Assembly: GCA_002457275.1 (NCBI GenBank) | Contig: NTKD01000004.1 | Location: 1 to 64,000 of the forward strand | DNA: 64,000 bases | Reading direction: 5' to 3' | Source of the DNA: OM182 bacterium MED-G24 | GTDB taxonomy: Bacteria > Pseudomonadota > Gammaproteobacteria > Pseudomonadales > Azotimanducaceae | Shown here: positions 20,379 to 27,454 of the stretch, piece after piece | Layout of the letters: each line of letters opens with the position of its first letter | Numbering within the stretch: the first letter of the stretch is position 1 | Notes under the pieces: generated by a model | Seen by the model: only the letters and a program-made list of their open reading frames with translations | What the model was told of the DNA's origin: nothing | The model's database searches: none | Translations under genes and position numbers: made by a program

Positions 20379-20652
20379 GGCGTAATGCCCGTTAAATCTT
20401 TGGTGCTATTTAACCTGTTAAAGCCTGAGTGCGTGTTGAAGGAAAGTGAAAGATCGGCGGAACATTGCTGGAGAAAGTATGAACCACGCCTTCTAATGCT
20501 AAAATGAACGCGCTCGTCGACAATACTCGCCGGGCACAGGAGTGAACTTAAGCCGCTCGTCGGGAATCACAGTTACCACAGTGATCCATTCGAGCTGGCA
20601 TCGAAGCCCGAATTCGCTGCCGCAGTCGACCGCATCCAGAGTACGAAACAAG

Positions 20653-21354
20653 ATGGCAAAACGTATAGCGATCGTTGAAGACGATCCAGATCAGCGCAGC
20701 AACTACGTCGATGCAATTACGAGAAAGGGGTACGACGTTACCGCTTACAGTAGTCGAGAGGACGCAATCAGTGGATTCGAGAAGGAACTCCCTGAACTGG
20801 TCATCCTCGACATCATCCTCGGAGACGAGGTCGATGCCGGGTTCGAGCTCTGTCGAGAATTGTTATCCCGTGCACCTTCACTCCCCGTGATCTTCCTTAC
20901 GGAACGCATCAAGGAAATCGACAAGATCAGCGGGCTCAGACTCGGCGCATGGGACTACCTGCCAAAACCCATTACCCTCGACTACTTGGCGGAACGGATT
21001 TCTTCTCTCCTTCGCATCAGTGAGGCGCGCAGTCAATCCAGCGCGACAGGATCCACGTCCGCAAAAGTCATCGGTGATCTCAGTATCGACCAGGAAGCTC
21101 TGCTGGTCTCCTGGAAGGGCAGTGCCATCAATCTGTCCGGCACGGAGTTCAGGATGCTCGCAAAACTGGTGCGCCTGCCCGGACACGCGGTTTCCTACGA
21201 CACGCTGATGAACGCCACCATGCAGTCGCTTGTCACCAACAATACGATCAACACCCATATGCGTAACATCCGCAAGAAGTTCGAAACGATCGATCCGGAT
21301 TTCAATGCCATCAAAAGCGAATACGGTTACGGATATCGCTGGTCTTCTGGTTAG
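20653..21354 (+). CDS. OmpR/PhoB-family response regulator (PdsR-like)
   Basis: This 233-residue protein has an N-terminal receiver (IAIVEDDPDQR acidic pocket, phospho-acceptor Asp in LVILDIILGDE, FLTER switch region, Lys in YLPKPITLDYL). The C-terminal winged-helix DNA-binding domain follows (LSGTEFRMLAKLVRLPGHAV, then NTINTHMRNIRKKF and YGYGYRW). The ATG at 20653 gives a standard start (MAKRIAIVEDD); a longer frame from 20542 adds an unlikely N-terminus. The kinase starts 15 bp downstream. Together they resemble the PdsR/PdsS pair that accompanies the rare marine proteobacterial sortase system; that assignment is from memory. Confidence 0.9.
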   Translation: MAKRIAIVEDDPDQRSNYVDAITRKGYDVTAYSSREDAISGFEKELPELVILDIILGDEVDAGFELCRELLSRAPSLPVIFLTERIKEIDKISGLRLGAWDYLPKPITLDYLAERISSLLRISEARSQSSATGSTSAKVIGDLSIDQEALLVSWKGSAINLSGTEFRMLAKLVRLPGHAVSYDTLMNATMQSLVTNNTINTHMRNIRKKFETIDPDFNAIKSEYGYGYRWSSG

Positions 21355-21369
21355 ACAGGAGGAGAAGCA

Positions 21370-23532
21370 ATGCTGAAACGATTGTTCAGCTTTAGCGGCC
21401 CGAGACTCGCCACCAAGCTATTTATCATCATGAGTGTGACCATGGTCGTCATCCCATGGTTCAGCTACCTGTATCTCCGGGAGATGGAAGCGTTCCTGAT
21501 CGACAGTCAGGCAAACGCCCAGCGACTGACCGCCGAAGGCATCAGCACGTTGCTGAACGGTCGGACCGATCTCTTCCACGAGCTGCCGCTGTCACCTGAC
21601 GGTTATGATCAGCTCTATGCTCATCCCCTTGATTCACCCGTCAGAATCGACGGCAAGGACAGTGACTGGGAAGACATCCTCGATTTTGATCTCCAGTTTG
21701 GTGGCGATACCGAGCAAACAGAAGAGGGTACGCAGTTCTATCTCCTGCTGGGTGAACACAATGAACTGGTCTATGTTCTGGTCCGTGTCATCGACGACCA
21801 ACTAGTATTCCGGGACAGAACGATCCTGCGACTAGACGTGTCTGATCACCTTCGTCTCAACTACACCGATGCGCTGGACCGGAACCGCAAGCTCGTCATC
21901 ACAATGCCGGCACCAGGTGTAACCACGGCCTACGACATCGATGATGAGTGGCGCTACGCAACACAGTCCGGTGCAGACAATCGCGTCCAGGGCTTTGTCA
22001 GCGAAACATCCGACGGCTATATCGCGGAGTTCCGGTTTCCACTCGCCATGCTGGGATCAACCCGACAGTTTGGTCTGGCTGTAGTCGACGTCGACAACGC
22101 AGTTGAGCGATCCATTGAATCAATTACCAGCACGCTGCCTTCCGCCGGTCATGAGGCCTACGGTCTTGTCCTGCTCAAATCGCCAGAGGTTCTAAAGATT
22201 GTGCAGGGACTCGGCTACTCAGGGGCAAACATCCAGGTCATCGATACCAGCAAGCGCGTTCGCGCAGAGGTCGGGAGTTACGATGCCGCGCCCGCCCCGG
22301 AAACCGAGGACGCCAGTGCGATCGATCGCTTTCTCAGCCTGACCAGTCGACCGGTGGACGCCATCTTCTCCGCCCTAGTGGCAAGAAACAGTGATTTCAA
22401 TCCCCTCGCGTCGGATCAGGTCATCAGCACAGCCCTCGACGGGACTCCCAGTCACCAGCTTCGATATACCCAGCAGGACGGTGAAGTCATCATTGCCGCG
22501 CACCCGATCATCGCCCAGGACGTGACCATCGGGACCGTGGTACTGACGCAGAACACAGAACGCATCCTTGAACTCCGACGCGATGCACTGGGGCGTATCG
22601 TGAACTTCTCAGTGCTGGCCCTTTTCATCTTTGTCGCGCTCGTCATGGCGTTCTCTGTGACATTGGCTCGTCGCATCAGAAAACTCGGCGCAGAGACCAC
22701 CAATGCCATCGACGCCTACGGGCGCCTCAGGACCAATCGAATCCATAGTGAAACTGAGTCTGGTGACGAGATTGGAGATCTGGCCCGCAACATCTCCAAC
22801 ATGCTGTCGCGGCTGCACCAGCACAACCAGTTTCTGGAGAACATGCCCCGCACACTGCGGCACGAGATCAACAATCCATTAAACGCCCTCTCAACGTCTC
22901 TGCAGAACCTGGCCTCAGAGGAACAGCCAGACAATCGAGCCAAGTACCTCGACAGCGCCCAACGCGCCGTCATGCGCATCGGAATGATCGTTCAGAACCT
23001 CGCAGACGCCGCGAGTCTGGAGGAGGCGCTGGAGGCCGATGATTTCGAAGTGATCGACCTCAGGGAACTCGTTAGCAACTATCTGAACAACTGTCGGGTC
23101 TTGCATCCAAAAGCACATTTTGAATACCGCGGCACGCATCGCCCTGTGCTCAGTGCCGTCTCCGACTACCGTATCGAGCAGCTGTTGGACAAACTCATCG
23201 ACAACGCCGTCGACTTCTCAGCGCCCGATAGCACAATCACGGTGGGACTCACCACTGAAGCGCATCAGTTGACCTTGTTCGTAACCAACGAAGGGTCCAC
23301 AATTCCGCGGGAAGAACTGGACAACATCTTTGACTCCATGGTCTCGGTGCGTCAGAACAATCCAGACAACCGCCTGCACTTTGGCATGGGGCTTTACGTT
23401 GTGCGGGTCATCGCTGAACATCATGGGGGTCAGGTCAGTGCGGTAAACCTGTTGAACCGCCGCGGCGTGACCGTTCGTGTCACGTTACCGTTGGATCGAC
23501 AGCAACCGGAAGAGCTCTTGGCCGCAGGCTGA
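21370..23532 (+). CDS. Sensor histidine kinase with large periplasmic CBM9-like sensor (PdsS-like)
   Basis: This 720-residue inner-membrane kinase has a first span at residues 16–35. A periplasmic region of about 370 residues follows, with a CBM9/DOMON-like start (DSPVRIDGKDSDWEDILDF, residues 88–106). A second span lies around 413–435, then HAMP, then HisKA with H-box RTLRHEINNPLNAL, and HATPase_c with DNAVDFSAPD (N box) and HFGMGLYVVRVIAEHH (G box). An AGGAGG ribosome site precedes the ATG. The IDG-x-D-x-DW motif suggests that a carbohydrate-like or surface ligand is sensed. No sortase gene lies in this window. Confidence 0.88.
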   Translation: MLKRLFSFSGPRLATKLFIIMSVTMVVIPWFSYLYLREMEAFLIDSQANAQRLTAEGISTLLNGRTDLFHELPLSPDGYDQLYAHPLDSPVRIDGKDSDWEDILDFDLQFGGDTEQTEEGTQFYLLLGEHNELVYVLVRVIDDQLVFRDRTILRLDVSDHLRLNYTDALDRNRKLVITMPAPGVTTAYDIDDEWRYATQSGADNRVQGFVSETSDGYIAEFRFPLAMLGSTRQFGLAVVDVDNAVERSIESITSTLPSAGHEAYGLVLLKSPEVLKIVQGLGYSGANIQVIDTSKRVRAEVGSYDAAPAPETEDASAIDRFLSLTSRPVDAIFSALVARNSDFNPLASDQVISTALDGTPSHQLRYTQQDGEVIIAAHPIIAQDVTIGTVVLTQNTERILELRRDALGRIVNFSVLALFIFVALVMAFSVTLARRIRKLGAETTNAIDAYGRLRTNRIHSETESGDEIGDLARNISNMLSRLHQHNQFLENMPRTLRHEINNPLNALSTSLQNLASEEQPDNRAKYLDSAQRAVMRIGMIVQNLADAASLEEALEADDFEVIDLRELVSNYLNNCRVLHPKAHFEYRGTHRPVLSAVSDYRIEQLLDKLIDNAVDFSAPDSTITVGLTTEAHQLTLFVTNEGSTIPREELDNIFDSMVSVRQNNPDNRLHFGMGLYVVRVIAEHHGGQVSAVNLLNRRGVTVRVTLPLDRQQPEELLAAG

Positions 23533-23533
23533 C

Positions 23534-24051
23534 TCAATTCACCACCGGTTTCTCCTGCGAGGCACTCTGCGCGTGCTTTAGCGGCAATTGAGAAAGCCCC
23601 CATTCTCCCTGCTGGGCAGCACCTAGGAGGAGCCGGGTGAGGTTGTTGTTGATATAGCGATTGATGCCGATGTTGATGCCTTGCCCTTCCTTGGGTGCAT
23701 TCCCAGGTTGAGCTGATCATCGTCGATTCGATAGGTGAGACGATGCGCGAGCATGGCGTCCTCACCCAGGGGGTCGCTGAGCCGAGGCTTCAAACTGTTT
23801 GACATATTGGCGGTCTGCGCCGATTGTTCCTGCTTAAAAGCCTGAACCGCCTGACGTGCCTCCGGTGCCTGTTGTAAAACCACATCCGGGTCGCGTGACT
23901 GATGCTCCTGGAGCACGCGCAGCAGCAAAATCGTATAACGCCGCGAGAACCAGCATCGATACTCCGCGTGGTCCGTCGTATTTACACGCAACAGGAGACG
24001 GTCCTCCTCCCGCCTATACACCACCCGAAGCTGACTGATCGCGCCACCCAT
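23534..24051 (-). pseudogene. Conserved hypothetical gene with 3' frameshift
   Basis: From ATG 24051 the frame encodes GGAISQLRVVYRREEDRLLL, RVNTTDHAEYRCWFSRRYT, and later RLTYRIDDDQLNLGMHPRKG, which reads like a genuine protein. At about 23690–23700 the meaningful sequence moves to another frame (GQGINIGINRYINNNLTRLL, then GEWGLSQLPLKHAQS) and ends at the TGA at 23534. The original frame instead runs into low-complexity serine/threonine codons. One indel in CACCCAAGGAAGGGC would restore a protein of about 170 residues. I recognise it only as a small uncharacterised gammaproteobacterial family. It is divergent from sahR. Confidence 0.6.
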
Positions 24052-24142
24052 ACAAATCGCTTCTTCGTTTCGTTGCTCCTGGACAAGGAATACACCAGGT
24101 ATTCCATAGGTGCAGTATTTCGCCCCAGTCGACCCATTAAAT

Positions 24143-24199
24143 ATCAAAATATGTTGATGTTCCGATGCGATGTCTCTATACAGATCAAAATTTTTTGAT
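24143..24199 (+). promoter_or_regulatory. Twin operators upstream of sahR–ahcY
   Basis: Two copies of ATCAA-N6-TTGAT lie at 24143–24158 and 24184–24199, 41 bp apart (about four helical turns, hence on one DNA face). The second extends to a perfect ATCAAAA-TT-TTTTGAT. They end 14 bp before the sahR ATG. ArsR-type dimers bind such inverted repeats. The A/T-rich half-sites fit what I recall of SahR motifs, and no other copies were seen near by. They should also control the divergent hypothetical gene, whose start is 92 bp away. Confidence 0.7.
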
Positions 24200-24213
24200 A
24201 TAGCTAACGAACG

Positions 24214-25191
24214 ATGGGCGCAATCGCGCAATCAGCATCTCTTGGGAGCGATCTCCTCGATGTCTGCAAGGCAAGCGCTGACAAGCTCAGGCTGCATATC
24301 CTGGGTGTTCTGCGCAACGAGTCTTTCGGCGTGAAGGAATTGTGTCAGGTGTTCGACGTCGCTCAACCCAATATGACGCACCACCTCAAGATCCTGGCTG
24401 GCGCAGGGCTGGTACAGACGCGCAAGGAAGGAACATCGGTGTTTTACCGCCGAGCCCTCGCAACCGATATGGATGATCCTTTCGCGCGCCTTAAACAGCA
24501 GTTGTACGACACGGTCGATCTGCAACCCATTTCCACGACTGTTCTCCGCGGCGTCAGCAAGGTTCACCGGCAAAGGGCGAACCGTTCCCAGTCCTTTTTC
24601 GCGCGACACGCAGATCAGATTTCTGAGAACCAGGACCTCATCGCCCCGATCGACAGCTATCTGCCGACGTTAATCGAATGGCTGGATGAGTTACCTGAGA
24701 CGTCGAGAGTCATGGAAGTCGGTCCGGGAGAAAGTCCGTTGCTCACTGTATTGGCGGACCGGTTCAAGAAAGTCACTGCACTCGATCATTCGACATCCAT
24801 GCTCTACAAAGCCAGGGCACAACTGAATAGTCGATTTCCAAGGCGCGTTCGATTTGTGGAGGCAGAGGTCAGCAACTATCTGGACTCACCCGTCGACCTC
24901 ATTGTGCTCAACATGGTGCTGCACCATCTATCGTCACCATCGGTGTTTTTTCGGGACGCTGCTAGGAACCTGAATGATCAGGGACAATTGCTGATCGCAG
25001 ACCTGTCACCGCACAAGCAGGACTGGGCCAGGGAATCCTGCGGGGATCAATGGCTGGGGTTTGATCCGACCGATCTCAGCCGTTGGAGCACCGATGCGGG
25101 TTTCATTGCAACAAAACAGAGTTTCCTGGGACTGAATAACGGCTTTCAGATCCAGCTTCGACAATTCAGACATTCATCAACCACCTCATGA
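24214..25191 (+). CDS. sahR: ArsR-family regulator with SAM-methyltransferase-like domain (SahR)
   Basis: This 325-residue protein has an N-terminal winged helix of ArsR type ([20 protein letters not shown], recognition region [20 protein letters not shown]). A C-terminal class-I methyltransferase fold follows from about residue 150 ([19 protein letters not shown], then [11 protein letters not shown] and [14 protein letters not shown]). SahR proteins are repressors that sense S-adenosylhomocysteine through this domain and control the methionine/SAM cycle. The direct downstream partner is ahcY, 19 bp away, which supports the call. Twin inverted repeats lie in its own promoter. Confidence 0.85.
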
Positions 25192-25210: not shown

Positions 25211-26575
25211 ATGGCCGATGACTTCAAAGTCGCAGATATGTCTCTGACGGACTTCGGACGCGCCGAGATCACTTTGGCAGAAGCTGAAATGCCAGCGCTG
25301 ATGGCCCTCAGGGACAAATACCGGGAGACGCAGCCTCTGGCAGATGCACGTATCATGGGCTGTATCCACATGACAATTCAGACCGCCGTTCTTATTGAAA
25401 CCCTGGTCGACCTGGGTGCAGAAGTTCGGTGGTCCTCGTGCAACATCTTTTCGACCCAGGACCACGCTGCGGCTGCTATTGCGGCCAGTGGGATCCCTGT
25501 TTTCGCATGGAAGGGTGAAACAGACGATGAATTCCTATGGTGTATCCGACAGACCATCGAAAAAGATGGCGAGCCCTGGGACGCCAACATGATCCTAGAT
25601 GACGGCGGCGATCTCACTGCAATGGTGCATGAGGATTACCCTGACATGCTGAACCGTATTCACGGTATCACGGAGGAGACCACCACCGGCGTACATCGAC
25701 TCTACGAGATGCTCGAAAAACAGGAACTCAAAGTTCCTTGTATCAACGTGAATGACTCGGTGACCAAGTCCAAGAACGACAACAAGTACGGTTGTCGTCA
25801 TAGCCTGAACGATGCCGTAAAACGCGCGACAGACATGCTGATGATGGGTAAGCAGGCGCTCGTCGTTGGCTACGGTGATGTCGGCAAAGGCTCCGCGCAG
25901 AGTCTTCGACAGGAAGGCATGATCGTCAAAGTCGTCGAAGTGGACCCAATCTGTGCCATGCAGGCCTGCATGGATGGCTACGAGATCGTCTCACCCTACA
26001 TGAACGGCATCAACGATGGCACGATCGAGAATATCGACACGCGTCTGATGGACAATATTGACCTGCTGGTCACCTGCACCGGCAACGTCAACGTCTGCGA
26101 CAGCAAAATGCTGCGAAGCCTGCAGGCTGGCGCAATCGTCTGCAATATCGGTCACTTCGATACCGAGATTGACACCCACTACATGCGTGACAACTGGCGC
26201 TGGCAGGAGGTCAAGGAGCAGGTGCACATGGTTTTCCGCAGTGATGATCCGAGGGACTATCTGATCCTCTTGTCCGAGGGACGACTGGTTAACCTGGGTA
26301 ACGCCACTGGCCACCCTTCGAGGATCATGGATGGTTCGTTTGCCAACCAGGTACTGGCGCAGATTTACCTCTATGAACGCAGGTGGGCGGATCACGCTGA
26401 AGATCAGCGAGAACCCATCACCGTTGAAGTATTGCCCAAGAAACTGGATGAGGAGGTCGCCAGTCTCATGGTCGCCGGATTCGGGGGCGTTCTGACGCAA
26501 CTCACCAAGAAACAGGCGGACTACATCAATGTACCCGTGGAAGGTCCCTACAAGATAGAGCAGTACAAGTACTAG
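25211..26575 (+). CDS. ahcY: Adenosylhomocysteinase (SAH hydrolase)
   Basis: This 454-residue cytoplasmic NAD-dependent enzyme splits S-adenosylhomocysteine into homocysteine and adenosine. It shows [11 protein letters not shown] at the N-terminus, the substrate-binding [19 protein letters not shown], the NAD-binding [11 protein letters not shown] and the C-terminal lysine/tyrosine end ([12 protein letters not shown]). It carries the bacterial insert relative to animal enzymes. An AAGGAG ribosome site is eight bases upstream. Its substrate is the presumed SahR ligand, so sahR–ahcY forms a feedback unit. No SAH riboswitch is visible. Confidence 0.97.
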
Positions 26576-27454
26576 ATGAATCAGGTTCTTGCTGACCTTC
26601 TTGACCTTCTCGATCTGGAAAAGATCGAGGAGGATATGTACCTGGGTGTCAGTCCACAGACGGGCTGGCAACGGGTCTACGGCGGCCAGGTTCTGGGTCA
26701 GGCGCTCGTCGCCGCTTCCCGAACGGTACCTGATGAAGATCGCATCGCTCACTCACTGCACGGATACTTCCTCCGACCCGGGGACACGACGATTCCCATC
26801 CTCTATCAGGTAGATCGCATTCGCGACGGAAAAAGCTTCACCACGCGCAGGGTCGTCGCCATTCAGCGTGGCCAGGCAATTTTCAACATGTCAGCCTCGT
26901 TCCAGGTCGTTGAGCCGGGGCTTGATCACCAGGTCGCAGCGCCCGACGTACCGCCCCCGGAAGAATCCGTCAGCATGCGCGAACGAAGGGAAGCGTTCGT
27001 CAAGGAAATGGGCGGTACGGGGAATAATACCTGGCTGGACCGACCCGAACCCATTGAGATGCGTTTCACAGACGATCACAACGAATTTTCACCGGAAACA
27101 CGAGACCCGGTTCAACGCACCTGGATTCGAACTGTCGATACAATGCCGGACGGTGTCCGTCTGCACCAGTGTTTACTGGCCTATGCCTCGGACATGACCC
27201 TACTGGACACCAGCTATCGCCCCCATGCAATCGCGTGGACCGATGAGAACTTCCAGGTCGCCTCGCTCGATCATTCCATGTGGTTTCATCGTCCGTTCCG
27301 AACGGATGAATGGTTACTCTACGACCAGGACAGCCCTTTTTCCGGTGGTGCACGAGGCTTCAGTCGCGGTGCCTTCTTCGATCGCAAAGGTCGTCTGATT
27401 GCATCGACCGCACAGGAAGGATTGATACGTTTGCATGAAAAAACAAAGGCTTAG
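26576..27454 (+). CDS. tesB: Acyl-CoA thioesterase II
   Basis: This 292-residue double-hotdog enzyme hydrolyses medium and long acyl-CoAs. Family motifs are GWQRVYGGQVLGQALVAA and VHSLHGYFLRPGD-like (IAHSLHGYFLRPGDTTIPIL). The catalytic triad segments are LLAYASDMTLLDTS (Asp), ASLDHSMWFHRPF (Ser/Thr position) and STAQEGLIR (Gln). The ATG directly follows the ahcY stop with no gap, so it is read with sahR–ahcY, an unusual partnership that may simply be convenience. Confidence 0.92.
   Translation: MNQVLADLLDLLDLEKIEEDMYLGVSPQTGWQRVYGGQVLGQALVAASRTVPDEDRIAHSLHGYFLRPGDTTIPILYQVDRIRDGKSFTTRRVVAIQRGQAIFNMSASFQVVEPGLDHQVAAPDVPPPEESVSMRERREAFVKEMGGTGNNTWLDRPEPIEMRFTDDHNEFSPETRDPVQRTWIRTVDTMPDGVRLHQCLLAYASDMTLLDTSYRPHAIAWTDENFQVASLDHSMWFHRPFRTDEWLLYDQDSPFSGGARGFSRGAFFDRKGRLIASTAQEGLIRLHEKTKA

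Follow-up and report, generated by a model that had tools for sequence, protein, structure and literature searches.

Two predicted SahR operators bracket a predicted sahR–ahcY promoter in OM182 bacterium MED-G24

Several lines of evidence suggest that, in OM182 bacterium MED-G24, two palindromic operators of the regulator SahR lie on either side of the sahR–ahcY(–tesB) operon's promoter and overlap it, and it is highly probable that SahR represses its own transcription here by steric hindrance, with repression relieved by S-adenosylhomocysteine (SAH). The locus lies in a contiguous stretch of 64,000 nucleotides that was analyzed as a whole (hereafter, the window). Because the regulator and a 20-bp palindrome that it recognizes have already been published, the window locus is a member of a known regulon, and its place among SahR-controlled loci, with a two-operator layout specific to its clade, is well supported. 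The features discussed below are as follows.

23535–24051, minus strand: divergent gene with a broken frame here and no assigned family; intact and conserved in relatives
24143–24158, no strand: operator 1 core, ATCAA-AATATG-TTGAT; 24-bp extended site at 24139–24162, score 24.5
24154–24159, plus strand: predicted −35 element TTGATG, made of the operator 1 right half-site plus one base; 4/6 match to consensus; conserved in G168, the only other genome examined from the same genus
24177–24182, plus strand: predicted −10 element TATACA, after a 17-bp spacer and ending 1 bp before operator 2; 4/6 match to consensus
24184–24199, no strand: operator 2 core, ATCAA-AATTTT-TTGAT; 24-bp extended site at 24180–24203, score 25.0
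24214–25191, plus strand: sahR, 325 aa, ArsR-type winged helix plus SAM/SAH-binding methyltransferase fold
25211–26575, plus strand: ahcY, adenosylhomocysteinase (SAH hydrolase), 454 aa, TIGR00936 above cut-off; begins 19 bp after sahR
26576–27454, plus strand: tesB-like acyl-CoA thioesterase II; its start codon follows the ahcY stop with no gap

Operators and genes of the sahR–ahcY operon

The original prediction of two ATCAA-N6-TTGAT inverted repeats, 41 bp apart, is borne out: ATCAAAATATGTTGAT occupies 24143–24158 and ATCAAAATTTTTTGAT occupies 24184–24199 (41 bp from start to start). These are the sole exact matches in the 64-kb window, for which dinucleotide shuffles gave a mean of 0.09 and never two. 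Elsewhere in the organism's own assembly (2.09 Mb, 85% complete) there is one further exact core match, at C33:15052; it was rejected as a chance occurrence, as it is without the flanking bases (weight-matrix score −2.9) and has no recognized methionine gene nearby. When the pattern is extended to 20 bp, operators 1 and 2 are the only matches in the assembly with at most one mismatch, and all others have two.

Operators of the same type are found in relatives. Of 150 distinct related loci, 146 have a site of this 24-bp palindromic type before sahR, and the consensus of these sites, CWATATCAAAATATTTTGATATWG, is palindromic over at least 24 bp. They were used, with the window left out, to build a 24-bp weight matrix. 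It gives operators 2 and 1 scores of 25.0 and 24.5, respectively; no other position in the 64 kb exceeds 0.5, and no score reached 12 in 2 Mb of random sequence. At both operators the outward flank is intact and the promoter-facing flank is degenerate. The relatives' motif, together with the published SahR family (PMC4239095; PMC8877191), supports the earlier reading of the repeats as SahR operators in front of sahR–ahcY.

The downstream genes are also as originally described, that is, an ArsR helix-turn-helix joined to a methyltransferase fold and then adenosylhomocysteinase. The window SahR matches Pfam HTH_5 and Methyltransf_11/23 as well as NF033788 above their cut-offs, and its structure model (pLDDT 90) comprises a winged helix and a Rossmann (class I) methyltransferase fold. 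In the PDB, the fold of this model is closest to that of Rv2258c, whether solved with SAH or without it, and small-molecule methyltransferases are also among the best matches; a sequence search of solved structures matched only SahR's single domains. In an alignment of 23 SahR sequences, the EVGPG loop (motif I) and the acidic residue D191 after strand 2, which form part of the cofactor site, are conserved, and this pattern is consistent with SAM/SAH binding by SahR. Along almost its entire length the protein shares 43–46% identity with Pseudomonas proteins whose genes neighbor metK, and the Pseudomonas gene PA0547 is named sahR (PMC7950407). Judged from these comparisons, the window SahR is very likely orthologous to the known SahR.

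Gene order in relatives also supports SahR control of this operon. In all 80 related loci scored for it, sahR is co-directional with metK and/or ahcY (sahR-metK in 41, sahR-metK-ahcY in 17, sahR-ahcY in 22), and the order sahR-ahcY-tesB occurs in 11 of the 80. The tesB-like gene is probably on the sahR–ahcY transcript. The ahcY stop codon runs straight into the tesB-like ATG (26573–26578), an arrangement that suggests translational coupling.

Promoter and proposed mechanism

A promoter element was overlooked in the original prediction: from its sequence, the right half of operator 1 is predicted to be the −35 element. The arrangement is kept in the same place in G168 (TTGATG-N17-TATAAC), and a related locus with a 40-bp operator spacing has TTGATA-N17-TATCAT with the same operator overlap as the window. 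A generic promoter scan did not call the sahR–ahcY promoter because its hexamers, at 4/6 each, are too weak. Among the 24 relatives with double operators, a −10-like hexamer (TACTAT, TAATAT, TAGTAT, TACAAT or TATCAT) touches operator 2 in every case, and its last bases double as the conserved flank of that operator; the −10-like match abutting operator 2 averages 4.2/6, compared with 2.4 before operator 1. In the more common class of doublets, with 49–51 bp between operators, operator 1 ends shortly before a distinct −35 element such as TTGAAA, TTGCAA or TTGATG, some members being without a good one. A phage origin of the promoter was considered and rejected, as there was no match.

We propose the following mechanism. 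Operator 1 would hold the −35 element, and operator 2, beginning 1 bp past the −10 element, would cover the start of transcription predicted at about 24189. Assuming one dimer per site, SahR bound at either operator would sterically exclude RNA polymerase, and the presence of two operators could make repression tighter or more graded. As SAH accumulates it would bind the methyltransferase-like domain and SahR would release the DNA, so that SAH hydrolase would be made until SAH falls. The whole would amount to negative autoregulation in which the feedback signal is the very metabolite removed through the operon. We infer the transcription start, the binding of dimers and the preference for independent steric block over looping or cooperativity. 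Autorepression relieved by SAH, as originally proposed, is the most likely mode of control given the relatives' motif and the published family, from whose members both the effector and the autorepression are carried over (PMC4239095; PMC8877191). In Ensifer aridi, deletion of sahR raised sahR expression (PMC8877191), and SAH is reported to be the effector that alters DNA binding by Desulfovibrio SahR (work cited in PMC8877191 and PMC4239095). By analogy with what has been suggested for SamR, SahR could in principle respond to SAM instead of SAH.

Spacing of the paired operators

The distance between the operators can be read off the promoter. A spacing of 40 or 41 bp is the sum of 11 (the offset of TTGAT within operator 1), 6, 17, 6, and 0 or 1; as the operator 1 half-site serves as the predicted −35 element and is followed by a 17-bp spacer, the −10 element and operator 2, the 41-bp spacing is that of promoter geometry. 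Double operators are present in 24 of the 63 loci in which ahcY directly follows sahR and in none of the 87 other sahR loci, counts that do not represent independent events since, in a quick SahR tree, the doublets form essentially one clade. Their spacings are 28 bp (two loci), 40 bp (one locus) and 49, 50 or 51 bp (the rest).

It was previously argued that the operators are helically phased and therefore bound cooperatively. The arithmetic holds, with 41/10.5 giving 3.9 helical turns and hence nearly the same DNA face; the conclusion drawn from it is not supported as it was put, because the relatives' spacings mean that helical phasing is neither needed nor shown. A version of the argument in which the spacing was selected so that two SahR dimers on the same face touch or loop can appeal to more than the 3.9 turns, given that the 28, 40/41 and 49–51 bp spacings cluster closely in helical phase (7 to 9.5 of 10.5 bp) and that, beyond these, the only spacings found are 16 bp, from overlapping matches, and 123 bp, from a single weak pair. 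Nevertheless, the phase departs by 1–3.5 bp from integral turns, the clustering is not significant because there are only three spacing classes, essentially in one clade, and the anchoring of operator 2 at the −10 element with operator 1 on or beside the −35 element yields both 40/41 and about 50 bp. We therefore consider selection for phasing rather unlikely, and cooperative same-face binding by SahR is possible.

Conservation within the genus bears on whether both operators act. In G168 the operator 1 core is identical to that of the window, and operator 2 is degenerate at the same +41 offset, with two core mismatches and a score of −4.5, so that operator 2 may be auxiliary. A stronger form of this reading, in which operator 1 alone is functional here and operator 2 is a decaying second copy, is in keeping with G168 and with the single site found in most SahR promoters of the order. 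It is at odds with the slightly higher score of operator 2 in the window (25.0 versus 24.5) and with the retention of operator 2 in 24 relatives, and we judge it unlikely.

The divergent gene

Upstream of the operators, a minus-strand frame of approximately 115 residues runs from 24051 and continues in another frame to about 23535. This confirms the frame break noted in the original prediction. In relatives the gene is intact (about 170–180 codons, 34–57% identical), and no convincing Pfam match was found for it there. In G168, too, several shifts and stops interrupt the gene; thus, the break looks like real decay within the genus and not a single read error. The further suggestion that the operators govern this gene is unlikely to matter here, given its decay in both members of the genus, and is plausible in relatives.

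Taken to its full extent, that suggestion would have operator 2 serve sahR–ahcY and operator 1 serve, or once have served, the divergent gene, with one control region shared by two transcripts. In the sahR–ahcY loci whose upstream DNA is long enough to tell, the divergent gene is present in 19 of 23 doublets and 4 of 35 single-site loci (Fisher p = 5e-8), an association that is phylogenetically confounded by the essentially single clade of doublets; the gap between operator 1 and the divergent start codon is 8–30 bp in several relatives. Against such a division of labor, no consistent −10 element directed toward the divergent gene was seen by eye at operator 1, and operator 1 is the better conserved site in the very genus in which the gene is broken. 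We find bidirectional control improbable and favor two operators acting on the sahR–ahcY promoter. Finally, the notion that the operators are chance inverted repeats in an intergenic stretch that looks more A+T-rich in sequence than the window average is extremely improbable, as two exact matches stand against an expected 0.09, the pair are the best two extended matches in the assembly, and the conservation of orthologous sites in relatives already refutes it.

Two further observations concern this region. Three related loci (L051, L053 and L061) have a third, degenerate ATAAACAATC[GA]TTGAT repeat, about 120–137 bp upstream of sahR and near the divergent start codon. In the window, a response regulator and a 720-aa sensor histidine kinase, as read from the sequence, are encoded at 20542–23532, just upstream of the decayed gene.

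Extent of the regulon

The core targets of SahR are ahcY, metK, metF, metH and sahR itself, and published targets vary among genomes, with metK, metF and metH common and not universal (PMC4239095). The original prediction proposed scanning the genome for further ATCAA-N6-TTGAT sites near metE, metH, metK and metF, and the expectation of such sites was not realized. In the organism's own assembly metK and metF lie together in an operon at another place and have no SahR site (best score −6.5), metE is absent and no full-length metH was found. A one-mismatch repeat between metK and tkt (C1:55294) was rejected, as its score of −6.5 is at about the window background. Every mismatch-free 20-bp site in a set of 16 related genomes is at sahR–ahcY, and in the 14 of them with DNA upstream of metK no convincing SahR site precedes that gene (best −3.7). 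The absence of sites at metK–metF here and at metK in relatives indicates a local regulon; the SahR regulon of this clade seems to be confined to one operon, and targets in the missing part of the assembly could escape this survey. The absence of other methionine sites leaves SahR control of its own operon unrefuted. Separately, L185:3011-3988 encodes a 325-aa homocysteine S-methyltransferase-like protein after a 411-aa open reading frame, possibly of a PhyH-type oxygenase; this protein may act as a stand-in for methionine synthase in this genome, in which no full-length metH or metE was found.

A bolder reading, which we consider rather unlikely, is that in this mostly uncultured Pseudomonadales clade a multi-target SahR regulon has become a single-locus switch with two promoter-clamping operators, one half-site of which can double as a −35 element, and that the switch also governs, or has governed, a conserved divergent gene without an assigned function that is tied to SAH metabolism. 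The locus offers a clear, testable case of a metabolite-sensing repressor whose operators are fitted onto its promoter, and illustrates that operator spacing can follow −35/−10 geometry instead of helical phasing. A single-locus SahR regulon with a linked divergent gene would be a small addition to what is known of SAH homeostasis in uncultured gammaproteobacteria.

Comparison with known systems

The window SahR shares its winged-helix DNA-binding domain (NF033788) with the other ArsR/SmtB repressors, which are metal sensors, and differs from them in that its sensing domain is a methyltransferase fold. ArsR metal sensors carry a paired-cysteine metal motif in helix 3, and this motif was not seen in the window SahR sequence. 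The SAH riboswitch of ahcY in beta-proteobacteria follows the same logic, in that SAH turns on SAH hydrolase, but it is an RNA element; no Rfam riboswitch match was found near sahR–ahcY or metK.

SamR of the Xanthomonadales is a distant homolog of SahR, about 30% identical to it, and recognizes a 24-bp palindrome that shares the ATC-10 nt-GAT arrangement with the operators described here (PMC4239095). Unlike the window regulator, SamR is encoded next to metH; its targets are metK and the genes of methionine synthesis, and the remaining SAM-cycle genes, ahcY among them, are outside its control (PMC4239095). The window regulator is linked to ahcY.

The closest counterpart is the SahR regulon itself (Novichkov et al. 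2014; Leyn et al. 2014), which likewise has an ArsR–methyltransferase regulator, a palindromic operator of the ATC-N10-GAT type, sahR and ahcY as targets, and representatives in Pseudomonadales relatives (PMC4239095). The motif described for SahR is a 20-bp palindrome (PMC4239095), and the window operators fit its gamma/delta type as far as length and the ATC-10-GAT core can be compared. The SahR regulons in the literature contain 4.3 genes per genome on average, with metK, metF and metH among their targets (PMC5343134; PMC4239095). In contrast, the SahR system of the window has no further methionine-cycle targets that we could find, and is distinguished by two operators that clamp one promoter.
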